This document shows, piece by piece, positions 1 to 22,735 of a stretch of DNA of 23,116 nt. The notes beneath the pieces are model-generated. The model was not told where the DNA came from and did no database searches. It was given only the letters and a program-made list of their open reading frames with translations. Every line of letters starts with the position of its first letter. The stretch's first letter is position 1. Source of the DNA: a virus. The stretch is taken from IMG/VR virus record IMGVR_UViG_3300025892_000164, positions 1-23,116 of that record. The stretch is one strand, 5' to 3'. The translations under genes and the position numbers were made by a program.

Positions 1-3000
1 ACCATCAGCTTTAAGTGTTACTGCACCCGATGAAACTGTAAAGTGATCACTGCTAAATGATGCTATACCTTTATTGGATGTTGTTGCATCTTCACCTGAT
101 ATAGTACCACCTGAAACATCGATACCTTCACCAGCCGCAAGATAACTTCCAACTCTTGCATCAGTATAATAAAGATTATTACCTTCAGTTAAGTTTGTAG
201 TTGTAAATCCTGTTAAGTTGCGTGTTCCAATTACAAGTGCGTGACCCATATAACCATGAGCTGAACACTGATAATGTAGTACTGGAGGAGTAGCCTCACT
301 TACAACAATTTCTAAATATGTTGAAGTTGTTGTAACGCCACTAGTAAATGCTGTTGTTTTTGCAGCGTCATAATAAAGTCTAAATGGGTGACTTGACATA
401 TCACTTGAACTTAGAGTAAATCTGTAAGTTCTACCGATTTGTAAATGTACTATCGGTGAGAATGTGCCATCAATTAAATATCCGCTAGAACTTCCTGTTC
501 CATTATAAACATGTGAAGCTGTTTTAGATGCAACCGTTACTGCAAAATTCTTTGTAGTTGCATCGTGTTTATTTCTTTCAACTGCAGTATTTGCAGAATC
601 TTTTGCAAAGAAATAATCACTATCAAAATTGTCAGCCGTGTAAACTGATTCGACATCAAAGCTGAATTGACCAGTTCCTGAGTTATATGATAGATCACCA
701 CCAGCTGAGAATAAACCTCTTATTTCTGATGAATCAACTGAAATATTACCAGCAGCTATATCAATACCATGACCACCTGCAAAATGTGCTCTTGTTTCTG
801 AGGCACTTGGTCCTGTGTAAGTAAAAATACCAGTAGCAGAATCATATGAGAAGCTTCCATCTCCACCAGCATCTATTCCAACTAAAGCACTTCTTGCCGC
901 AGAATCTGCTCTTGCAGTAGTATAATATAAATTGCTACCTTCCGATAAGTTGGTAGTAGATTTTGCATCAAATGCAGAATCAATATCTGAATCTGTTCTT
1001 GATTTTAAATAATATAGATTAGTTTGTTCCGGAATATCAGCTGTACTTACTTGATTCGTTCCTGTACCAAAGTCAATATGAGTATCATCAATACCGTCAG
1101 TTTTAATTGTTACTGCGCCAGATGTAACTGTAAAGTGATCACTACTAAATGATGCTATACCTTTATTAGATGCAGTAGCATCTTCTGCAGATATTTCACC
1201 AGAAGATATGTCAATACCTTCACCAGCACTAAAGTGAGCTCGTGTTTCTGCTGCACTTGGCCCAGTGTAAGTAAATACGCCGGTTGAACTATTATAAGCA
1301 AAACTACCATCACCGCCTGCATCTGTGGCAGAGACATAACCTCTTATTAATGGACGATAGTATGTTGTTAATTCAGCCGAATCAATTGCTAAATCTCTTG
1401 TTGATGCAATTGTTCCACCACCCTTTAAACCAACACCTGCGGTTATAGATACTGACGTATGATCAATATGTTCATTAGCTACAAACCCTGATAAATTATC
1501 ATGCCTTATTATTGGTTCATAGTAAGTTAAAAGTTCAGCAGAATCAATAGCCAAATCTCTAGTAGATGCAATAGTGCCTCCACCTTTTAAACCAAATCCT
1601 GCAGTTATTGAAACTCCGCTGTGTGCGACATGTTCATCACCTACAAAATTAGTAAGTGCATCATGATCTATAGATGGAATATTTCCAATGTCAGCAATTA
1701 ATAATGTTGGTATTCTTGCAGAGTCAATAGTTCCTGTTAAAGATGCTGCAGGTAAATTAGTTAATGATGCACCTGATCCTGAAAATAAAGGAGCATTTAT
1801 TTCTCTATTTGAAATAAATTTAGCACCGGAATGTTGATAGTTAAATGTAGGATTATTGACAATTGCTGAATCACCCCAAGTGAATCCTGCGCCATTAAGT
1901 GCTGAACTATCTGCTGCACTATCAGCTATAACAATATTTTTATCTTTTAGTACTATTGCAGATGAATTAATAGTAGTTTGAGATCCTTCAACTTGAAGGT
2001 TACCCATAATCTTTACTGTACCAGTAGCATCACCAATTGCAGCTGGATCAATTATTAATTCAGCTGGACCTCTTAATTGTGCAAATGTTGGTGTAGCTGC
2101 TGAATCTAAAGGCTGAGGACCTCGAATATCACCTGTACTACTATTGTAAGATATGCCGTTACTTGCACTTAGATGTGCTCTAACTTCTGCAGATGACGGT
2201 CCAGTGTATGTGAATACACCTGTAGAGTTGTTATATGCAAATGATCCATCACCACCTGCATCAGTAGCACTTACAGCGTTCTTTGCATCACTGTCTGCTC
2301 TTGCTGTGGTGTAATAAAGATTGGTTTGTTCAGGAATATCAGCCGTACTTACTTGATTTGTACCTGTACCAAAATCAATATGTGTATCATCTATTCCATC
2401 GGCTTTAATGCTGACAGCACCAGATGTAACTGCAAAATGTTCAGTGTTAAATGATGCTATACCTTTATTAGATGTTGATGCATCTTCACCGGATATTTCG
2501 CCAGAAGATATATCAATACCTTCACCGGCACTAAAGTGAGCTCTTGTTTCAGATGCACTTGGACCGGTGTATGTAAGAATTCCAGTAGAATTATCATAAG
2601 CAAAACTTCCGTCTCCACCTGCATCTGTTGCTGATATGAAACCTCTAATTTGTTGTCTAAATAAACTCGTAAGTTCTGCAGAATCTATCTTAATATCACC
2701 AGAAGTAATAGCAATACCGGATCCTCCAGTAAAATGTGCTCTCACTTCACTTGCATTTGGACCTGTATAAGTAAATTTACCAGTAGCAGAATCATAACTA
2801 AATGATCCATCTCCTCCAGCGTCTATTCCAAGTAATGCACTTCTTGCTGCAGAATCAGCTCGTGCAACTGTGTAGTATAGATTATTACCTTCAGATAAAT
2901 CTGTTGTTGATCTTGCATCGAATGCAGAATCAATATCGGAGTCAACCCTCGATTTTAAGTAATATAAATTAGTGCCTTCTGGCAATTGACCAGTATTTGC

Positions 3001-3822
3001 ATCACCTAAATCAGAATCAAAATTTGTTTTAGTGTAAACTTGTTCTACATCAAATGTAAACTGACCGGTGCCAGAGTTATATGTTAAATCTCCACCAGCT
3101 GTAAAATATCCACGAATGTCTTGTTTGAAGTTTGCTTCTAATTCTGCAGAGTCGATGCTTAGCGTGTTGCTAGCATTATTGTAAGTTAAACCTACACCTT
3201 CAAGAACAGCACTATCAAGTGTTATATTGAAGTCAGAATCAAAATTTGCTTTTGTATATACTTGTTCAACATCGAATTCAAATATACCGGTGCTGGCATT
3301 ATATGAAAGATCACCGCCACTGGCAAACATATTTCTAATTTGTTGTATAGAACCTTGTAAATTAAAATTTACTGGAGCTCCAACACTGTCTGTGGCTGCA
3401 AAACCTCCACTGGAATCTTTTAAATTTATGCTACCTAAGTGTATTGTAGTTCCACTTAAATATAAATCTCTGAATTTCTTAGCACTGTCACCTAAGTCAA
3501 ATGAACTATCTAGTGTAGGAACAATGTGGCCTTTTGTTGTAAGACCTGTTACGACTGGTGTTTTATCGGAATCTATAGCAATGATTAATTTGTCATTACC
3601 GGGTGAATATTCTCTTGCTAAACCTTGACCGACATCGAATGTAAAGTTCTTAAATGCGTTTTCAGCTGAATCATAGACTAATATTTGACCATCAGATTTA
3701 GTTGCGACACTAAAGTCTGAAAAGTTATCAATGGACAATCCAGTCTGTGCAGTACTTATTGGTGTACCAACTACAATCTTTTTGATGAAAGTCTGTTGGC
3801 CTGTAACAACCTTAATTGCCAT
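1..3822 (-). CDS. Giant modular tail-fibre / virion structural protein with an embedded cupredoxin-like domain (C-terminus beyond window)
   Basis: The frame is open from ATG at 3822 to the left edge, 1274 codons without a stop, so the C-terminus is missing. A good ribosome site (GAGGAA) lies just upstream, 7 bases after the preceding stop. Residues 1-160 form a head region with DLGDSAKKFRDLYLSG, a motif I recall from marine T4-like fibres. The rest is built from repeated modules: 'DAGGDGSF.Y...TG..TYTGP' (five copies), 'AGGDLSYN.GTG.F.FDVE.VYT' (three), 'SITAG.GLKGGGTIASTRDL' (two in tandem), 'SNKGIASF...HF.V.SGAV' (three) and 'EG.NLYY...RADSAARSAL'. Around residues 600-650 is a GNLQVEGSQTTINSS unit. 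Residues about 1090-1205 form a cupredoxin-like domain. The low-complexity, beta-rich, DSA-rich make-up fits an elongated, probably trimeric fibre outside the baseplate. The fibre role is inferred from composition and position; the exact attachment site is unknown. Confidence 0.85.
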   Translation of the reverse strand, partial: MAIKVVTGQQTFIKKIVVGTPISTAQTGLSIDNFSDFSVATKSDGQILVYDSAENAFKNFTFDVGQGLAREYSPGNDKLIIAIDSDKTPVVTGLTTKGHIVPTLDSSFDLGDSAKKFRDLYLSGTTIHLGSINLKDSSGGFAATDSVGAPVNFNLQGSIQQIRNMFASGGDLSYNASTGIFEFDVEQVYTKANFDSDFNITLDSAVLEGVGLTYNNASNTLSIDSAELEANFKQDIRGYFTAGGDLTYNSGTGQFTFDVEQVYTKTNFDSDLGDANTGQLPEGTNLYYLKSRVDSDIDSAFDARSTTDLSEGNNLYYTVARADSAARSALLGIDAGGDGSFSYDSATGKFTYTGPNASEVRAHFTGGSGIAITSGDIKIDSAELTSLFRQQIRGFISATDAGGDGSFAYDNSTGILTYTGPSASETRAHFSAGEGIDISSGEISGEDASTSNKGIASFNTEHFAVTSGAVSIKADGIDDTHIDFGTGTNQVSTADIPEQTNLYYTTARADSDAKNAVSATDAGGDGSFAYNNSTGVFTYTGPSSAEVRAHLSASNGISYNSSTGDIRGPQPLDSAATPTFAQLRGPAELIIDPAAIGDATGTVKIMGNLQVEGSQTTINSSAIVLKDKNIVIADSAADSSALNGAGFTWGDSAIVNNPTFNYQHSGAKFISNREINAPLFSGSGASLTNLPAASLTGTIDSARIPTLLIADIGNIPSIDHDALTNFVGDEHVAHSGVSITAGFGLKGGGTIASTRDLAIDSAELLTYYEPIIRHDNLSGFVANEHIDHTSVSITAGVGLKGGGTIASTRDLAIDSAELTTYYRPLIRGYVSATDAGGDGSFAYNSSTGVFTYTGPSAAETRAHFSAGEGIDISSGEISAEDATASNKGIASFSSDHFTVTSGAVTIKTDGIDDTHIDFGTGTNQVSTADIPEQTNLYYLKSRTDSDIDSAFDAKSTTNLSEGSNLYYTTARADSAARSALVGIDAGGDGSFSYDSATGIFTYTGPSASETRAHFAGGHGIDIAAGNISVDSSEIRGLFSAGGDLSYNSGTGQFSFDVESVYTADNFDSDYFFAKDSANTAVERNKHDATTKNFAVTVASKTASHVYNGTGSSSGYLIDGTFSPIVHLQIGRTYRFTLSSSDMSSHPFRLYYDAAKTTAFTSGVTTTSTYLEIVVSEATPPVLHYQCSAHGYMGHALVIGTRNLTGFTTTNLTEGNNLYYTDARVGSYLAAGEGIDVSGGTISGEDATTSNKGIASFSSDHFTVSSGAVTLKADG
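215..560 (-). other. Cupredoxin-like (type-1 copper site) domain inside the giant fibre
   Basis: Translation of this stretch gives 'SSHPFRLYYD' followed about 40 residues later by 'LHYQCSAHGYMGHALV'. With the start at 3822 the putative ligands are H1145, C1186, H1189 and M1192. The arrangement His-x40-Cys-x2-His-x2-Met matches the spacing of amicyanin (H53, C92, H95, M98), a blue copper protein. The flanking strands ('RTYRFTLSSSDM', 'STYLEIVVS') fit a Greek-key beta-sandwich. From memory, similar YxCxxHxxMG segments occur in other marine phage structural proteins. Copper binding is an inference; the four ligand residues are seen directly. Confidence 0.7.
720..1040 (-). repeat. Fibre composite repeat (EG.NLYY / RADSAARSAL / GIDAGGDGSFSYDSATG), copy 2
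   Basis: Aligns without gaps to 2670-2990 at a constant offset of 1950 bases (650 codons). Both copies encode an 'LKSR.DSDIDSAFDA.STT.LSEG.NLYY' segment, then 'ARADSAARSAL.GIDAGGDGSFSYDSATG'. The block overlaps the edge of the other repeat class, so the fibre is a mosaic of nested duplications. Confidence 0.8.
1020..1347 (-). repeat. Fibre composite repeat block, copy 2 (DAGGDG module + SNKGIASF module)
   Basis: This stretch aligns without gaps to 2322-2649 at a constant offset of 1302 bases (434 codons). Both encode a 'DAGGDGSFAY..STG..TYTGPSA.ETRAHFSAGEGIDISSGEIS' type module followed by 'SNKGIASF...HF.VTSGAV.IK.DGIDDTHIDFGTGTNQV'. Many differences fall at third codon positions. A partial third copy of the second half lies at 1-145. 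Confidence 0.85.
1346..1669 (-). repeat. Two tandem 54-residue fibre repeats (GLKGGGTIASTRDLAIDSAEL)
   Basis: Two direct 162-base units, about 1508-1669 and 1346-1507. Each encodes 'H....F....H..H..VSITAG', then 'GLKGGGTIASTRDLAIDSAE', then 'TYY.P.IR'. The unit length is an exact multiple of three, so copy number can change without breaking the frame. Confidence 0.85.
2322..2649 (-). repeat. Fibre composite repeat block, copy 1 (DAGGDG module + SNKGIASF module)
   Basis: Partner of the block at 1020-1347, collinear with no indel by inspection. It precedes that copy in the protein. Protein identity is clearly higher than base identity, which suggests an old duplication kept by selection on the protein. 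Confidence 0.85.
2670..2990 (-). repeat. Fibre composite repeat (EG.NLYY / RADSAARSAL / GIDAGGDGSFSYDSATG), copy 1
   Basis: Partner of 720-1040. Its offset (1950 bases) differs from that of the neighbouring block pair (1302 bases), so the two duplications were separate events or were rearranged later. Confidence 0.8.
3005..3335 (-). repeat. Two near-tandem AGGDLSYN/FDVEQVYT fibre modules
   Basis: Modules at about 3225-3335 and 3005-3115 encode 'GGDL.YN..TG.F.FDVEQVYTK.NFDSD'. They are offset by 222 bases (74 codons). A third copy at about 610-715 lies just before the cupredoxin-like domain. Confidence 0.8.
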
Positions 3823-3829
3823 TATTTCC

Positions 3830-4183
3830 TCACTTAGTTACGGATGGAGTTACTTGTATGCGTCCTTCCATAATTCTTTCGACTATGGTGTTGCCAGTTC
3901 CACTTTCAGCATGAGATAACTCAACATCATATACGTGTCTTCCCGGCTTCAACGCATCAGTTTGTGTATTGGTAAGAGATAAAGTAGCAGTACCATCAGT
4001 ATTACTTGTTATTACTGTAGTAAAAGCTGTAGCTTCAGAACTATCTGTATTGAAAGTTTTCTTTATCTTACCAGTTACTGAATATCCTAAGAGATTCTTA
4101 GCTGCGCCGTTGATGTCGACTAAATGAAGTTCAATAGTAGTGTCAGTACCTTGATCAATGGTAAATTCGTGAAATTGGGCCAT
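3830..4183 (-). CDS. Small virion structural protein, beta-sandwich-like (117 aa)
   Basis: Starts at ATG 4183 behind a CGGAG ribosome site and is the first gene after a late promoter. It begins 'MAQFHEFTIDQGTDTTIELHL' and ends in 'VYDVELSH', 'VERIMEGRIQVTPSV'. The pattern of alternating hydrophobic and polar residues, with short Gly/Asn turns ('SNTDGTATLSL') and no helix-rich stretch, suggests an immunoglobulin-like or baseplate-upper-protein-like beta-sandwich. I recall similar short proteins beside fibre genes in marine T4-like phages, usually called only virion structural protein. It lies 7 bases before the giant fibre gene, so it may be a fibre connector or base. Function is inferred from position only. 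Confidence 0.7.
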   Translation of the reverse strand: MAQFHEFTIDQGTDTTIELHLVDINGAAKNLLGYSVTGKIKKTFNTDSSEATAFTTVITSNTDGTATLSLTNTQTDALKPGRHVYDVELSHAESGTGNTIVERIMEGRIQVTPSVTK

Positions 4184-13126: not shown

Positions 13127-14059
13127 TTATGATACCGTTACTTCACCTTGGTTTCCTACTAAAAACCAGTTTGATCCGTCCCATATACAAGTACAACCAT
13201 CGTTCTGTGCTAGAACAAATTTAGTACCTTGTGCAAAGTTAGTTGGTGTAACGTGCATTGCACCTGCACCTTTGTTTGTAAAAATCTTGTATTCACCTAC
13301 AGTTGTTCCATCCGCTAATGATACATCTAGTTGAGAACCTTTATTTCCTATTATTAAAGTTGCTGCTGTACTTGCCGCACCATTTGCAGTTATAGTTGAA
13401 GAACTAAAAGCTGCTTTATTAAGTTCAACAGAACCTGTTCCCTTTGGTGTCATAATAATGTTTAAATTAGTTCCACCACCTGTAGCAGAAAGCGTTGGGC
13501 CCGTTGATGATGCACCATTTGCTATTGTTAATTCATTTACTGCACTTCCAGTTGCAGTTATTTTTATAACCTCATTACCAGTTGTATCATTGATAGATGT
13601 TCCTACCTTAGGAGTGTTTATAGTTGGTGATGTTAGTGTTTTATTAGTTAATGTGTCGGTTGTAGCTCTTCCTACAAGTGTATCCGTTGATGTAGGTAAA
13701 GTTAAAGTACCAGTGTTTTTAATTGATGCTATAGTTGGTACTGTTAATGTTTTATTAGTTAATGTTTGAATTGTATTATTAAGAGTAACTGTGCCAGTTG
13801 AATCTGGTAATGTTATAACATTATCTTGTGTTGCATTTGTAGATTTTAATCTTGTTTCAAAATCATTAGCCGAAGAACCTTCAAATACTACTGCATCATT
13901 TTCTAAAGTAATTTGTGATGATAGATTACTACTATCTCCTCCACCGAGTAATGCATATACTTCAGCAAAGTTTGCATTTATCTTAGTGCCAGCAGTTCGT
14001 AATGTATCTCCATTACCATCATTTGCTGAGCTACCTATGCCTATATTTTGTCTAGTCAT
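13127..14059 (-). CDS. Fibre-like virion structural protein with TLTNKTLT repeats (310 aa)
   Basis: First gene after a late promoter; ATG at 14059 with an AGGAAAG ribosome site. Residues 1-35 ('IGIGSSANDGNGDTLRTAG', 'KINANFAEVYALLG') match an opening common in marine phage fibres and baseplate-associated proteins. 'LTNKTLTVPTI' (100-110) and 'LTNKTLTSPTI' (137-147) are repeats widespread in phage fibres and probably mark strands of a triple beta-helix. The C-terminus 'FVLAQNDGCTCIWDGSNWFL' is a small Trp- and Cys-containing domain. It lies between the gp7-position gene and gp8, an unusual place for a fibre-like protein. It may be a wedge-bound short fibre or connector; this is inferred from composition. 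Confidence 0.75.
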   Translation of the reverse strand: MTRQNIGIGSSANDGNGDTLRTAGTKINANFAEVYALLGGGDSSNLSSQITLENDAVVFEGSSANDFETRLKSTNATQDNVITLPDSTGTVTLNNTIQTLTNKTLTVPTIASIKNTGTLTLPTSTDTLVGRATTDTLTNKTLTSPTINTPKVGTSINDTTGNEVIKITATGSAVNELTIANGASSTGPTLSATGGGTNLNIIMTPKGTGSVELNKAAFSSSTITANGAASTAATLIIGNKGSQLDVSLADGTTVGEYKIFTNKGAGAMHVTPTNFAQGTKFVLAQNDGCTCIWDGSNWFLVGNQGEVTVS

Positions 14060-17443: not shown

Positions 17444-18394
17444 TCAATAATTTCCTAAGCCTGCAGATGATGAGCCAGAACTAGTTCCTGAGCTTGAAGA
17501 AGCACTTACTTCATTTGAAGGATATAGCGTATATATATTTGCATTATAATTCTGAACAGCATGATTTTGATTAGACAATGGCATATAAAACTCTATTTCT
17601 GGATATTCTATAAACGTATGTTTATGAACAGAGCCACTAGCTTTAGTACTATCTAAATAGATTGGATAAAAATAACCTTTTTGGCCAGAAGTATTTCCAA
17701 AATTACTTGTACCATAAACTGCATAAGCTTTCGATTCATCTAATGGTTGTGGTGCAGATGAAGTTGTTGTTTCTTCTTCACCAACTTCTAAAAATTCACC
17801 TGTAGCTTGAACAGCATTATTAAATCTTGTTTCAATAACTTCATTATATGTTACATTCCATGGTGCTATTATTTCAGGCATGATTAATACTATATCAACA
17901 TGCAATCTACCATTCGTGTTGTAACTATCATAGTTTAATATTATCTTATCATAATCTATATTATTTTTAAGATAAACTGCAAGATCGAATGTTTTATCAA
18001 ATGCTATTTTTCCGTCATCACCAATCAATTCATACACTACAGCTCTTCCATTTGTCTTTAAATAATTTATACCATCAGTTACATCTAAATCTTCGCTCGG
18101 TCCTTCTCTATAAAACCCTTCAGATACTACTAATCTGAAATTTTCGAAACCCTTTGCACCTCGTAAACCAGGCGATGAATTTATTGACTGCATTACTTGA
18201 GCATGTAAGTAATATTGTTTAGCTAATAATAGTTTATCAGGAGTTGCTAAATGATTTAAACTATTAGGATCACTGTAACTACCTAAAAATTTAGATAGTG
18301 TAATGCTTTGTGCTAATCGTGTACGTCCTGTTATTTCAGATTGAAATGTAGGGTCGTATTGAGCGTCTGGTATTATGTCTAACGTAAGTGCCAT
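17444..18394 (-). CDS. Hub-region structural protein with a possible degenerate M15-peptidase-like region (316 aa)
   Basis: ATG at 18394 shares one base with the preceding stop; no good ribosome site is visible, so translation is probably coupled. Residues about 85-170 ('FRLVVSEGFYREGP', 'YLKTNGRAVVYELIG', 'TFDLAVYLKNNIDYDKIILN', 'NGRLHVDIVLI') recall the M15 peptidase pattern of 'SG.R', 'H..G.A.D', 'fDlv.yi..nl.ydqliLe' and 'W.H'. The SxHxxGxAxD zinc motif is altered here: 'NGRAVVY' lacks both the His and the Asp, while H165 remains. If related, it is a non-catalytic remnant. A C-terminal 'SVHKHTFIEYPEIEFYMP' segment and a Ser/Gly-rich tail follow. Position right after the spike gene points to the hub or cell-wall contact. 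The family link is tentative. Confidence 0.6.
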   Translation of the reverse strand: MALTLDIIPDAQYDPTFQSEITGRTRLAQSITLSKFLGSYSDPNSLNHLATPDKLLLAKQYYLHAQVMQSINSSPGLRGAKGFENFRLVVSEGFYREGPSEDLDVTDGINYLKTNGRAVVYELIGDDGKIAFDKTFDLAVYLKNNIDYDKIILNYDSYNTNGRLHVDIVLIMPEIIAPWNVTYNEVIETRFNNAVQATGEFLEVGEEETTTSSAPQPLDESKAYAVYGTSNFGNTSGQKGYFYPIYLDSTKASGSVHKHTFIEYPEIEFYMPLSNQNHAVQNYNANIYTLYPSNEVSASSSSGTSSGSSSAGLGNY

Positions 18395-19776
18395 TATGTT
18401 TGATATACTTTCGATTTAGGATTAGAAGGTCCCATAGGTTCACTTCCTCTTTGTGATTTATCTTTAATGCTAACTGACTTTCCAAATTGTGGAGGTATAG
18501 TGTTTGCAAAATCTTTTGAAACTAATCCTTCTGATATTACCTCACCAACAAATGTTTCATTAGCAAGAGTTTTAGGATCACGTAACTTTGATCTAGTAGA
18601 TTTTGCATTCAAATCAGTCACGGTTATTCCACCATAGTTTCTACTTCTATCAACTGTAAATTTTAAATCGTCAAACGTATCTATTTCAACTTGTCTAACA
18701 CCATATTCTGGTGATGTTATTATAGAATTTAAAACTGTAGTGTCCGGCCTGTCAGTGTTTTTATCTGTTGCAGTTGTGACAGTAGCTGGAGATTGACTAC
18801 TACCTGCACCTATTGCACCTGCAGTGCCTGCTGTAGATGCGTTACCAGATAAATTACCATTGAATGTTGGAGCTGACATTCCTCCTGTAGCTGCAAAGAA
18901 AGTTGCATGCATAGATGTAGAATTTACTCTTGGTATATGCGCGGTATGACCGTAGTAAACTATTTCGTCTCCACCGATAGTTCCGCTATCACCTGCGAGT
19001 GTAAGACTTCTAGCACTAATATTTACGTCTGGTGATGTTGCAATAAATTTCTTTTCAGTAGTCATAATAAGCGTGCCGGCTGCATCTAACTCAATAAATC
19101 CTTCAACATTTGTTTCATAGTTTCCTTTTATAATTTGGTTTTTATCACTTAAGACTGTTTGTGTATCTGTACCTAAAACTGTTTCAGCTTTGTTTTGACC
19201 TATGTCTGTAGTTTTATTTTTAGTGACGCTTTGTATTGAATTACTTTTTATGATTTCTTCTTTATCACCTACAACATTTACGTTAAAATCACCACCAACT
19301 TCTAAATCAAAATCGCCTGCAACTTTCATTTTTAAATTACCGTTGTATACTACTTCACCATCGCCTTCAACAATGACTTTTTCATTAGCCGCTACAATTC
19401 TTAATGCATTGTTTGTAGAACTATAAATTACAGTTCCGTCTGCACGCATCTCTACGCCTGAACCTGTTCTATGTCGAATCATTACTCTTTCACGGCCATT
19501 AGTATCATCATATTCTATAATATGGCCTGATGCAGTTTCTTTGACTTGATTTTCTGGATATTGCGTAGAAGGTTCATCATTTAATTCTAAATCAACACCG
19601 GGTACACTTCCGCCGATATACACATTAGCAACTCGTGTTCCACGTGCAATATTGTTTACACCAGAAACACCTACATATTCTCGTCTTGGAAATCTTTTAT
19701 CTGGATCGGATCTTCCATCATCTGGATTTGCTATCGATTCAAGTTCACTAGGATCTATATCATCAATTTCAGCCAT
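18394..19776 (-). CDS. Baseplate central spike, gp5 C-terminal beta-helix type (460 aa)
   Basis: ATG at 19776 behind AGGAG; shares one base with the preceding stop. 'DEPSTQYPENQVKETASGHI' with 'IEYDDTNGRERVMIRHRTGS' (67-106) is the characteristic entry into the gp5-type triple-stranded beta-helix. About 110-260 then show short alternating strands ('GDGEVVYNGNLKMKVAGDFD', 'LEVGGDFNVNVVGDKEEI'), the repeat style of spike needles that pierce the outer membrane. Residues 280-330 are Gly/Ala-rich ('APTFNGNLSGNASTAGTAG'). The last 120 residues are not recognised. There is no OB-fold or lysozyme domain; these lie in the gene at 21884-22735. So the T4 gp5 functions are divided over two proteins in this phage. 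Confidence 0.85.
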   Translation of the reverse strand: MAEIDDIDPSELESIANPDDGRSDPDKRFPRREYVGVSGVNNIARGTRVANVYIGGSVPGVDLELNDEPSTQYPENQVKETASGHIIEYDDTNGRERVMIRHRTGSGVEMRADGTVIYSSTNNALRIVAANEKVIVEGDGEVVYNGNLKMKVAGDFDLEVGGDFNVNVVGDKEEIIKSNSIQSVTKNKTTDIGQNKAETVLGTDTQTVLSDKNQIIKGNYETNVEGFIELDAAGTLIMTTEKKFIATSPDVNISARSLTLAGDSGTIGGDEIVYYGHTAHIPRVNSTSMHATFFAATGGMSAPTFNGNLSGNASTAGTAGAIGAGSSQSPATVTTATDKNTDRPDTTVLNSIITSPEYGVRQVEIDTFDDLKFTVDRSRNYGGITVTDLNAKSTRSKLRDPKTLANETFVGEVISEGLVSKDFANTIPPQFGKSVSIKDKSQRGSEPMGPSNPKSKVYQT

Positions 19777-21884
19777 TAAGTACTCCTATTTTGTTTTAAA
19801 GTAGACCCAAGAGTTTTAACACTGTTCGCATCTGTATTAACTTTATTAACAATATTATTAATCAACTTATTGTTTTCTTTCATTTTAGCTTGAGCTGCTT
19901 TATAATCCGTATCGAAATTTGCTTTTAAATCTCCATCAGGTAAATTTTCTGCACCAAATTTATCACTGATTGCATTTCTGCTATCACCATTTAAAGATGC
20001 TAATGCAGCACCTGCTTTCTTAAACATTCCATTAACATCATTATTAAATCTTTTACTTTCTGCAAGATCTGTGATAGTTTTGTTTGCTTCTGCATAAGAT
20101 ACTGGTTTTGATATTGTAGATGATGTTTTAGCGATAGTTGCAGGTCTTGTTACTGCTGTTTGAAGCTTTGGCGGAAATTCATCAAGATCAGTAAGATCAT
20201 CATAACGATATACAAATCTATATTTAGATTTTACATTTTGCCTTACATTAAAAGTATTTTGTACACGATCACTTGCTTCACTGCTGCCATATACACCACA
20301 ATCTGGAAATACCGTAAACCATGCTTTTAAAAATCTATCATACGTTTCAAATTGTTTAGAATTAGGAGGTGATCCACCAGAAAGTATAGTTAGCTGTACA
20401 CCAGTTTTATAAAATCTTGGATATGCTATAGGTGTACGAGTTTTATCTATAGGTCTTGCTCTTTGTAAGCTACCATCAGTTAAAATTACATAATGAGAAT
20501 TTATTCCGTATTCATTAGGTCTTATTGATATTCTTTCGAGTGCCGTTTCAGCAGCAGTTTTTCCATCAGACGCAGTATTCGTATTTTCAATTTCTCTTGT
20601 TAATACGCGTAGTTGAGCCTTTTTAACATACTCTTGCATACTTTTAGCATTAGCTTTTTCTGGAGGACCGGTGTATTTTGCAGGTTCATGAATAAATAAT
20701 CCTCCTATAAAATCATCACCATTATTCTTTGGACCTCTATTGCAACTCTTAAATTCTGTAATTAATTCTTCTACAGAACTAACAAAAGTAAATTCGTAAC
20801 TTTCAGGTGTTGCGTATCCAGAAAATGCATTTTGATCTTGCAATACATATGATATTTTCGGTGCACCTACACTTACTAAGTTTCCTCTACTCATATAATC
20901 AGCCACATTAGTTTGACCTCCACCAGATTCAATTAAATCTAAAGCGGCACCGGCAATTCCAGATATTCCATTTTTAATATCACCAAATGCACTTGATACT
21001 TTATTTAACAAACCAGCTACAAATTGTGCACCTAAATTTTGTTTACTTCTACCTAATCCAGAAAATGCTGCAAGTGGATTTAAGTTGAAGCCCGCTAAAT
21101 TCAATTTGTCTTTTAATTTATCTTTATAAATCTTTGATGAAGTTTGTACAGCAACAGTTGAAGGATTGTTTTCTGGTTTTAAAGATTCAATAGTCCTTGA
21201 TGGACTTATAGAAACATTTGATGCATATGTTCTTATTTTCTGTGGAGAAAGATTTGAAAAGTTTTTTTGCATTTGTTTAAGTAAAGATGCTGGAGATCCA
21301 CTGGTAACTATTTTTTTCAATGAACCTGAAGCTGCAGGTGCAACACCGAATATACTCGTGAGTTGAGATGCATTAGTAGTATTTAATGTTAAACTCCCAT
21401 CGCCGGCTGATCCAGTTAGTTTAACTGGCATTGCTCTTTTAGTTATTGTTTCACTTTCTTTAGCAAATGGTGTTAAAGATTTAAACCCATTGACTTCTTT
21501 TAAATTACCAATGGTTGTACCTTCGTTACTAATTTTATTTGTTTGTGTATTTTCTAATTTTGTAGAAAAGAAAGGTTGATTGTTTTTAGCCGCTTGATTG
21601 ACATCTTCTTTAGAAATCAATTGACCAAACTGATCTCTCTGTGCAAATCCAGTATCAGTGAATGAAGCTTCAACTTTATCGTATGCTTGTATTAGGTTTA
21701 TTATACCTGCAGTTTCATTATACTTATATTGTATACCTTCACTGAGAGATGTGTACTCAGGACTTTTTAAATTTAGTAGTTTTTGTTCTTCTTCAGTATA
21801 GTCAGTTCTGAGTCTTACACTATGAAGAAGAGATCCTGCAGGTATCTGAAGTTTATTAGAATTTAAAAATATTTTAGTTGCCAT
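19776..21884 (-). CDS. Baseplate hub-associated protein with a degenerate amidase-like domain (702 aa)
   Basis: ATG at 21884 shares one base with the lysozyme gene stop. Residues 1-75 form a conserved-looking head ('KLQIPAGSLLHSVRLRTDYT', 'GIQYKYNETAGIINLI'). Residues 75-370 are low-complexity, Ser/Asn/Lys-rich, with helical Ala/Leu stretches near 265-320. Residues about 370-540 resemble a type-2 N-acetylmuramoyl-L-alanine amidase (PGRP fold): 'GGLFIHEP' (H399), 'GINSHYVILTDGSLQRARPI' (460-479), 'GVQLTILSGG' (495-504) and 'FETYDRFLKAWFTVFP' (512-527) followed by 'GVYGSSEASD'. The usual second zinc His ('GAH') is absent and the final 'GH' is 'GS' (533-534), so activity is doubtful. The C-terminus (600-700) is helical. 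Location between the lysozyme and spike genes suggests a hub protein. Confidence 0.75.
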   Translation of the reverse strand: MATKIFLNSNKLQIPAGSLLHSVRLRTDYTEEEQKLLNLKSPEYTSLSEGIQYKYNETAGIINLIQAYDKVEASFTDTGFAQRDQFGQLISKEDVNQAAKNNQPFFSTKLENTQTNKISNEGTTIGNLKEVNGFKSLTPFAKESETITKRAMPVKLTGSAGDGSLTLNTTNASQLTSIFGVAPAASGSLKKIVTSGSPASLLKQMQKNFSNLSPQKIRTYASNVSISPSRTIESLKPENNPSTVAVQTSSKIYKDKLKDKLNLAGFNLNPLAAFSGLGRSKQNLGAQFVAGLLNKVSSAFGDIKNGISGIAGAALDLIESGGGQTNVADYMSRGNLVSVGAPKISYVLQDQNAFSGYATPESYEFTFVSSVEELITEFKSCNRGPKNNGDDFIGGLFIHEPAKYTGPPEKANAKSMQEYVKKAQLRVLTREIENTNTASDGKTAAETALERISIRPNEYGINSHYVILTDGSLQRARPIDKTRTPIAYPRFYKTGVQLTILSGGSPPNSKQFETYDRFLKAWFTVFPDCGVYGSSEASDRVQNTFNVRQNVKSKYRFVYRYDDLTDLDEFPPKLQTAVTRPATIAKTSSTISKPVSYAEANKTITDLAESKRFNNDVNGMFKKAGAALASLNGDSRNAISDKFGAENLPDGDLKANFDTDYKAAQAKMKENNKLINNIVNKVNTDANSVKTLGSTLKQNRST

Positions 21885-22735
21885 TATACGTTCACCAATT
21901 TATCGAATACTTCTTTTGCGTAGCTTATTCTTTTTTCTGTGTGTGCAAATTGTTTATTAGGTCTTTCATAATTATCTTGAAATAACTCAGCTGCTCTCTT
22001 GACTGTAGTTGATTTTCTTAACGGGCCATCACCTAAGTAGTTAAATGTTTCAAGTTCGTACTTAGTAAATAATAGTTGTGCACCTAGCGTTAAATGGTCT
22101 AAACCTAAGTTAGATGAATATTCTCTTAGTTGACCTAGTCTATTACCAGCTGCTTGCGCTGGATTCCATTGTGCTATTCCAACTGAACCTTCGCCTTGAA
22201 ATCCTGATACTGTTGTTGGGTCAAGTGATGGACCACATTCAACACAAAAGTTACCTATAATACCACAAGCTTGCTCTACTGTATAATCGCCACCTTCTTC
22301 TGAAACAAAAAAATTAAATGCTTTCTCAATGTTAGTGTTTCCATCTAAGTCCAAGTCTATATTTCCTATTCCAGATTTTTTATTTAATGATGGATATGAC
22401 GGATCAGCATCACCGCTTTGGTTTGCATAAGTTTCTATCTTAGGTATTGATCCTATAACTAAAGGCAATTGTGAATTTCTTCCATCTAAAAATATACCGT
22501 ATACTTGTGCTCTTGGTTTTAAACTACTATTAGCACCTAAACCTGAACTACCGCCTTCTGTTACAGGTATCGCAACTTGAGCCCAAGGTAAATCATGATT
22601 AGGTATTAATGTAGTATCTGGAGTATGTATACCTTGTATACGAACTTTAACTCTATCGAGTTTAAGTGGATCATTTACATCTATAACTAATCCTATAAAC
22701 CATCTGCTGTGATCACCATAAAAGATTTGACTCAT
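21884..22735 (-). CDS. 5: Baseplate hub OB-fold protein with tail lysozyme domain (gp5 N-terminal part type, 283 aa)
   Basis: ATG at 22735 overlaps the preceding stop as ATGA, behind an AGAGGA ribosome site. Residues 5-97 form the gp5-type OB-fold: 'SRWFIGLVIDVNDPLKLDRV', 'KVRIQGIHTPDT', 'DLPWAQVAIPV', 'AQVYGIFLDG', 'LPLVIGSIPK'. Residues about 136-283 match the phage tail lysozyme family: 'YTVEQACGIIGNFCVECGPS' (151-170, catalytic Glu probably E166), 'LDPTTVSGFQGEGSVGIAQW' (171-190), then the helical 'LGAQLLFTKYELETF'. The enzyme would cut peptidoglycan during injection. T4 gp5 also has a C-terminal beta-helix needle; this protein ends after the lysozyme. The gp5 symbol refers to the N-terminal two-thirds only. 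Confidence 0.88.
   Translation of the reverse strand: MSQIFYGDHSRWFIGLVIDVNDPLKLDRVKVRIQGIHTPDTTLIPNHDLPWAQVAIPVTEGGSSGLGANSSLKPRAQVYGIFLDGRNSQLPLVIGSIPKIETYANQSGDADPSYPSLNKKSGIGNIDLDLDGNTNIEKAFNFFVSEEGGDYTVEQACGIIGNFCVECGPSLDPTTVSGFQGEGSVGIAQWNPAQAAGNRLGQLREYSSNLGLDHLTLGAQLLFTKYELETFNYLGDGPLRKSTTVKRAAELFQDNYERPNKQFAHTEKRISYAKEVFDKLVNV

Follow-up and report, generated by a model that had tools for sequence, protein, structure and literature searches.

Described cupredoxins and metal sites in phage fibres

Cupredoxins of the amicyanin, pseudoazurin, and plastocyanin type (Pfam PF00127) are small exported electron carriers whose ligands run in the order His, Cys, His, Met. In amicyanin these are H53, C92, H95, and M98, which gives H-x38-C followed by a C-x2-H-x2-M loop; rusticyanin and copper nitrite reductase have longer ligand loops. 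The phage domain analysed here has the same predicted fold and the same ligand order as the PF00127 proteins, but is part of a structural virion protein and has no match to PF00127. Its best fold matches are rusticyanin (1rcy, 2cal) and the cupredoxin part of Hyphomicrobium copper nitrite reductase (2dv6), redox carriers or enzymes that are 13-18% identical to it in the alignments. Bacterial relatives of the domain match a further family, PF25489 (At5g54830-like); these cellular proteins extend into long C-terminal parts, unlike the phage domain.

Metal in phage fibres has been described as iron bound on HxH motifs (T4 gp37 and Alteromonas phage R22Y), and an iron Trojan-horse idea has been published for such fibres (accessible part of PMC11705849). 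Those sites resemble ours in being metal ligands in phage fibres, with marine phages as metal carriers; unlike the cupredoxin module, they are octahedral iron sites and, as far as that part of the paper goes, involve no separate folded Cys-bearing domain. Encapsulin systems with cupredoxin-domain cargo are known (accessible part of PMC6934571). In the accessible text of PMC10436341, plastocyanin occurs only as petE within a gene-name list, and that of PMC9004378, on phage Melnitz, contains no cupredoxin and has copper only as electron microscopy (EM) grids. Our full-text searches, of a collection with few subscription papers and no bioRxiv preprints, listed no paper that describes such a domain in the fibre or baseplate proteins of a phage; as far as those searches show, the cupredoxin itself is known, and its recurrence in marine phages as a virion module with an apparently intact site is undescribed.

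A cupredoxin-like domain inside a tail fibre

The stretch of DNA that we analysed (the window) spans an entire virus record (23,116 bases), in which a profile search found a single copy of the domain. This copy lies in a minus-strand tail-fibre ORF (1..3822) that has PHROG tail fibre and structural matches, comprises 1,274 amino acids in the window, and continues past window base 1; in relative L001 (G001), whose domain is 98% identical, the open frame is 1,895 amino acids long. PHROG 30742 (tail fiber protein) matches the fibre ORF with a whole-protein E of 1.1e-35 and covers the domain at residues 1086-1200. The family profile matches the window at 211-570 with E 4.3e-58, the window sequence itself being a row of the profile. 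Nine predicted strands, from the AlphaFold2 (AF2) model and PDB fold matches described below, place the domain core at 226..555 on the minus strand (fibre residues 1090-1199); the extent of 215-560 assigned in an earlier, sequence-only reading was therefore approximately right, the predicted strands being slightly narrower.

Fibre repeat modules flank the domain on both sides, as that reading had claimed. Ahead of it we located DAGGDGSF...TYTGP (808..873, minus strand; residues 984-1005) and GGDLSYN at residue 1041; past it lies a stretch of modules (55..174, minus strand; residues 1217-1256) with LYYTDAR at 1217, GEGIDVSGG at 1231, and NKGIASF at 1250. With the repeats on either side, the PHROG fibre matches, and an ORF of at least 1,274 residues, the description of the domain as an insert in a structural fibre protein holds. 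A host plastocyanin carried as a metabolic gene was ruled out: there is no separate small gene, and the domain sits inside that long ORF.

The ORF translation has His, Cys, His, and Met at the positions claimed for them: H1145 (388..390), C1186 (265..267), H1189 (256..258), and M1192 (247..249), all on the minus strand. C1186 is the sole Cys among the 1,274 residues in the window. These candidate ligands follow the His...Cys-x(n)-His-x(n)-Met order of type-1 (blue) copper proteins. Their spacing, H-x40-C-x2-H-x2-M, is also as claimed, but its likeness to amicyanin is exact only in the C-x2-H-x2-M loop, which both share; the first interval is x40 in the fibre versus x38 in amicyanin. An additional His, H1104 (511..513, minus strand), is invariant in the fibre subfamily.

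The surroundings are those of a T4-like baseplate cluster, with gp8, gp9/10-like, and baseplate wedge proteins and gp5-like lysozyme parts. The neighbouring minus-strand ORF at 3830..4183 is similar in sequence to tail-fibre assembly families (PHROG 1084, unknown function, E 8.8e-22; PHROG 3304, L-shaped tail fiber protein assembly, E 5.2e-15). The gp9/gp10-like baseplate protein (13127..14059, minus strand) aligned only to positions 1-293 of the 412 in PHROG 677, so the C-terminal cupredoxin module (about 310-409) is apparently missing; the window protein thus seems to be without the module found in its cyanophage gp9-type relatives. The gp5-like tail lysozyme looks split across 18394-19776 and 21884-22735: one ORF carries the OB part (just below cut-off) and the phage tail lysozyme domain, the second piece has a weak match to the gp5 C-terminal trimer part, and a 702-amino-acid ORF (19776-21884) sits between them. 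Neither this ORF nor a 316-amino-acid ORF at 17444-18394 matched any PHROG at E 0.001 or any Pfam family at E 0.01.

Predicted fold

We modelled the window domain with AF2 from alignment A1 (the window and 64 IMG/VR relatives). The model is a beta-sandwich with a mean pLDDT of 87.3, a pTM of 0.80, and core blocks at 94-96. In a Foldseek search of the PDB, ranks 1-8 were rusticyanin (best E 6.6e-5), rank 9 was copper nitrite reductase, and amicyanin appeared at rank 16 (E 2.4e-3). Because ranks 10-12, 14, and 15 were SO1698, called an aspartic peptidase, and because query TM-scores were below 0.5 in all 50 matches listed, we did not rely on Foldseek alone. VIA-align gave Z 9.8 (rmsd 5.1, 103 aligned) against copper nitrite reductase 2dv6 and Z 8.9 (rmsd 3.2, 100 aligned) against rusticyanin 2cal, and its 50 listed matches were nitrite reductases, rusticyanins, and small two-domain laccases; since Z values of 7-8 are common even for models without a clear match, these are fair rather than overwhelming. 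The fold anticipated by the sequence-only reading is thus supported: the prediction is a beta-sandwich whose nearest solved structures are mostly cupredoxins. Judged from these structural matches, the modelled domain belongs to the cupredoxin fold superfamily, with a predicted Greek-key beta-sandwich.

Entries named 'Beta-sandwich protein' in BFVD, from Pithovirus and Marseillevirus relatives (124-425 amino acids), also match the fold of the window model, the best four with Foldseek E values of 2.3e-9 to 9.9e-9; these fold matches suggest that the domain may be present in giant viruses as well.

Sequence relationship to copper protein families

None of the curated Pfam or NCBIfam copper families was matched over its cut-off by the window domain, the A1 members, or the gp9 protein. 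The window domain had no match to PF00127 (Copper-bind) or PF13473 (Cupredoxin_1) at E up to 1, nor to PF25489 (cut-off 27 bits). Within A1, the only copper family matched was PF00394 (Cu-oxidase), by 5 of 65 members (best E 8.2e-4), and 12 of 65 weakly matched PF25489 (best E 0.0021, below cut-off); halocyanin TIGR03102 was seen in the gp9 protein at E 0.019, far below its cut-off. A single-sequence search of the PDB with the window domain yielded one match, a copper nitrite reductase at E 1. The A1 profile yielded four at E up to 10, three of them copper proteins (multicopper oxidase at 0.012, copper nitrite reductase at 0.1, and pseudoazurin at 0.26); the fourth, at 0.8, was an unrelated surface protein. 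The pseudoazurin (3tu6) alignment falls on YQC-x2-H-x2-MG; the Met aligned in 3tu6 is presumably not its axial ligand Met.

For profile comparisons we took bacterial cupredoxin sequences from 27 of 32 PF00127 loci and from 18 of 30 PF13473 loci. Against the 27 Copper-bind sequences, a broad profile (149 unique segments plus the window) scored 35.8 (probability 81%), with His, Cys, His, and Met in register, and 24.6 (probability 15%) under an alternative match-column rule; controls under the first rule reached a maximum of 23.1 in 100 column shuffles and 13.3 with the reversed profile. When the four ligand columns were masked, the Copper-bind score was 16.1 versus a shuffled maximum of 15.3. 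The narrower A1 profile scored 18.3 against the PF00127 sequences and 16.5 against the PF13473 sequences. Because the masked score lies barely above the shuffle maximum, the full score depends on the rule, and A1 scores weakly, similarity at the sequence level is modest and comes mostly from the ligands themselves, which are correctly ordered and in register.

Conservation of the ligand set

A first scan of IMG/VR, in which the best 80 of at least 162 relatives were examined and the retrieval patterns included QCSAHGYM, gave 84 domain matches, 70 of them unique; 64 of these and the window form A1 (65 rows). H1145, C1186, H1189, and M1192 are invariant in A1 and across all 71 rows (the 70 unique relatives plus the window), as is H1104. 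Since these patterns contained the ligand loop, we repeated the retrieval with A2, a query alignment that stops ahead of H1145 and is free of the four ligands. This second scan (best 80 of at least 464) produced 81 N-half domains; after removal of 12 duplicates and a single domain at a contig end, 68 unique usable relatives were left; the two sets have many contigs in common. H-x(35-48)-C-x2-H-x2-M is kept in 67 of the 68, the lone exception having C-x4-H-x2-M. The same pattern, which was picked after viewing the sequence, occurred in 0 of 20,000 composition shuffles of the ORF; on the shuffles and the conservation among relatives (71/71 and 67/68), we rejected a chance motif.

In the broader alignment, with 149 unique segments and the window as rows (profile matches of fewer than 76 positions were dropped), H1145 is present in 150 of 150, C1186 and H1189 each in 149 of 149 scorable rows, and M1192 in 148 of 149 scorable rows; the exception is bacterial paralogue L090 (Gallionellaceae), with Ala for Met. 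Residues between the ligands are variable while C, H, and M hardly change, both here and among the 68 relatives. Of the 303 unique segments overall, the four ligands are complete in 268; another 28 are without the three strong ones, one is without Met only, and six are incomplete: L166 (contig end), two S-SSM6b pieces (one split domain), and S-SZBM1, P-RSM6, and PSS2, in which the Cys loop is absent from the copies viewed. The H1104 column is variable in this wider family (H in 137 of the 268 full-ligand segments). Unique S-TIM5-like (55 of 55) and P-GSP1-like (57 of 57) relatives, from the best 80 each of at least 263 and at least 581, also carry full ligands; these counts are weaker evidence because their retrieval patterns included ligand-bearing ones.

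The first-scan relatives also bear on why the Cys is kept. Their 80 domain-bearing ORF stretches (74,496 residues; best 80 of at least 162) contain 139 Cys and 84 domains, and 46 of the 80, which may be cut at locus ends, have a single Cys; no internal disulphide partner is therefore visible in those 46, and an internal disulphide is unlikely to be the reason.

Loss of ligands in the RN05-S-like clade

In 27 of 28 unique segments from an RN05-S-like clade (L262-L303, from IMG/VR), Phe stands in place of the first His, Ala or Ser in place of the Cys, and Thr, Val, or Ile in place of the second His; the three strong ligands are thus lost together, and Met is retained. The remotest member retrieved has a complete ligand set. 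The clade model, built from 34 rows of which seven are ligand-bearing, has a mean pLDDT of 82.5 and is again a cupredoxin (Foldseek best E 2.9e-5), with VIA-align Z 10.9 to 2dv6 (rmsd 3.0, 97 aligned) and Z 9.7 to rusticyanin 2cal (rmsd 2.0, 93 aligned). Because this alignment is mostly ligand-less, the fold call is independent of a ligand-bearing query; because the fold is retained without the ligands, the site appears dispensable for folding and behaves as a unit. Ligand loss is not always joint, since the S-SZBM1 and P-RSM6 isolates have the first His and not the Cys loop.

Persistence of the fold in this clade would also suit a domain that binds no metal at all, a recycled beta-sandwich in which the four residues are kept for packing or the Cys for contact between molecules, and an intermolecular disulphide is compatible with the data. 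We consider this very improbable: a joint swap to F, A/S, and T/V/I with the fold kept is unexpected of packing residues, and packing would predict spacers as conserved as the ligands, whereas the spacers vary. H1145, C1186, H1189, and M1192 are most likely the ligands of one mononuclear type-1-like copper site. That the site binds metal is, in our judgement, highly likely, and nearly as likely is the combined proposition, setting role aside, that this is a cupredoxin domain with a real metal site. The RN05-S-like clade provides a natural apo (negative) control.

Occurrence in phages and bacteria

By tblastn against 50,697 phage records, the window domain matched 78, the ACG-2014d gp9 domain 345, and the S-TIM5 domain 276; the three sets overlap, are unmerged, and contain many near-identical isolates. 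By name, the matched phages are nearly all cyanobacterial (Synechococcus, Prochlorococcus, and others); a few are named for SAR11 or Methylophilales hosts. P-GSP1 belongs by classification to Autographiviridae, apart from the T4-like phages. The carriers are mostly annotated as tail fibre, baseplate wedge tail fibre connector (gp9), structural, or hypothetical proteins, and no annotation among the matches viewed named cupredoxin or copper. The module is found in several PHROG families, including 30742, 677, 892, 693, 9158, and 27200. It is thus not peculiar to one fibre: as judged by sequence similarity, the module recurs in virion proteins of marine phages, both fibres and gp9-like baseplate proteins.

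A full ligand set was present in 23 of 27 phage records, inspected as regions of records. The first 15, of which 12 are named phages and three are single-cell virus records, all have one or more full-set copies, as do eight of 12 further isolates; RN05-S, S-SZBM1, P-RSM6, and PSS2 are without it in the copy viewed. Two domain copies occur in 4 of the 80 ORF stretches (best 80 of at least 162), and P-SSM2 has three, one of which is a weak match (E 0.0035), spread over two fibre-type proteins. Beside gp9 in ACG-2014d, a large hypothetical protein (L185, 2241-4225) contains a YHYH domain (PF14240, E 2.6e-24), as well as a cupredoxin-like copy in which a long insertion separates the His from the Cys loop.

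Five bacterial loci (L088-L092; Gallionellaceae and Gammaproteobacteria) fall within or near PF25489, with matches up to E 1.6e-8 and three of the five above cut-off; they have export-like N-termini and the same domain fused to a long C-terminal part. The other six loci on genome contigs resemble fibre genes of phages that ended up in metagenome bins or in single-cell assemblies. A plasmid search with a bacterial relative gave no match.

Identity of the metal and possible roles

Copper is probably the natural metal, a judgement we make less firmly than that of metal binding as such. Free copper is scarce in the cytosol, where fibres are made, so another metal could occupy the site: zinc or some other ion would enter it while the fibre assembles in the host cytosol, and would then serve as a structural clamp only. 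By eye, the fibre N-terminus (MAIKVVTGQQ) has no obvious export signal, so the protein should fold inside the cell, and azurin produced in the cytosol picks up zinc. The metal discussed in print for phage fibres is, moreover, the iron on HxH motifs (accessible part of PMC11705849). Against zinc or another ion, His-Cys-His-Met with a C-x2-H-x2-M loop is the classic copper set, and zinc is not expected to need the axial Met that is kept in 148 of 149 scorable rows; we therefore think a noncopper clamp quite unlikely.

If the metal is copper, the predicted cupredoxin sandwich at residues 1090-1199, set between fibre repeat modules, would hold one copper ion at its ligand end, acquired during assembly or after lysis. 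The main effect of the bound metal would be to lock the loops there, which would keep an exposed module stable in sea water, and phages could have reused this stabilized module in fibres and in gp9-like baseplate connectors. We advance a stabilizing role only tentatively.

The site might instead act in infection, through electron transfer, as a sensor of copper state, or as copper bait for a copper receptor on the host surface. It is present in fibres and in annotated gp9-type baseplate wedge/tail fibre connectors, and such a role would be the copper counterpart of the published iron Trojan-horse idea (accessible part of PMC11705849). However, phages of Synechococcus, Prochlorococcus, SAR11, and Methylophilales all carry the module, which argues against one receptor, and the entire RN05-S-like clade does without the ligands; we regard action in infection as unlikely. 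With host surfaces so different and a clade free of ligands, stabilization fits better than a single receptor. For electron transfer, copper sensing, and a copper-receptor role, position is the sole support.

Implications for marine phages

Phage particles with such domains may, on the sequence evidence, carry bound copper. Copper could be a regular constituent of marine phage tails, both in T4-like phages and in other tailed phages that infect cyanobacteria, SAR11, and Methylophilales. Released virions would have it bound in the cupredoxin module of their fibres and gp9-like connectors, and fibre stability or adsorption would depend on it, which would make marine viruses an unrecognized pool of strong copper ligands in sea water; we offer this broader proposal as a possibility, short of an expectation. 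If copper is present, the published idea of iron in fibres would broaden to take in a second metal as well as a proper metalloprotein fold, and a conserved copper-type site in marine phage tails would tie virion structure to the trace-metal chemistry of the ocean.
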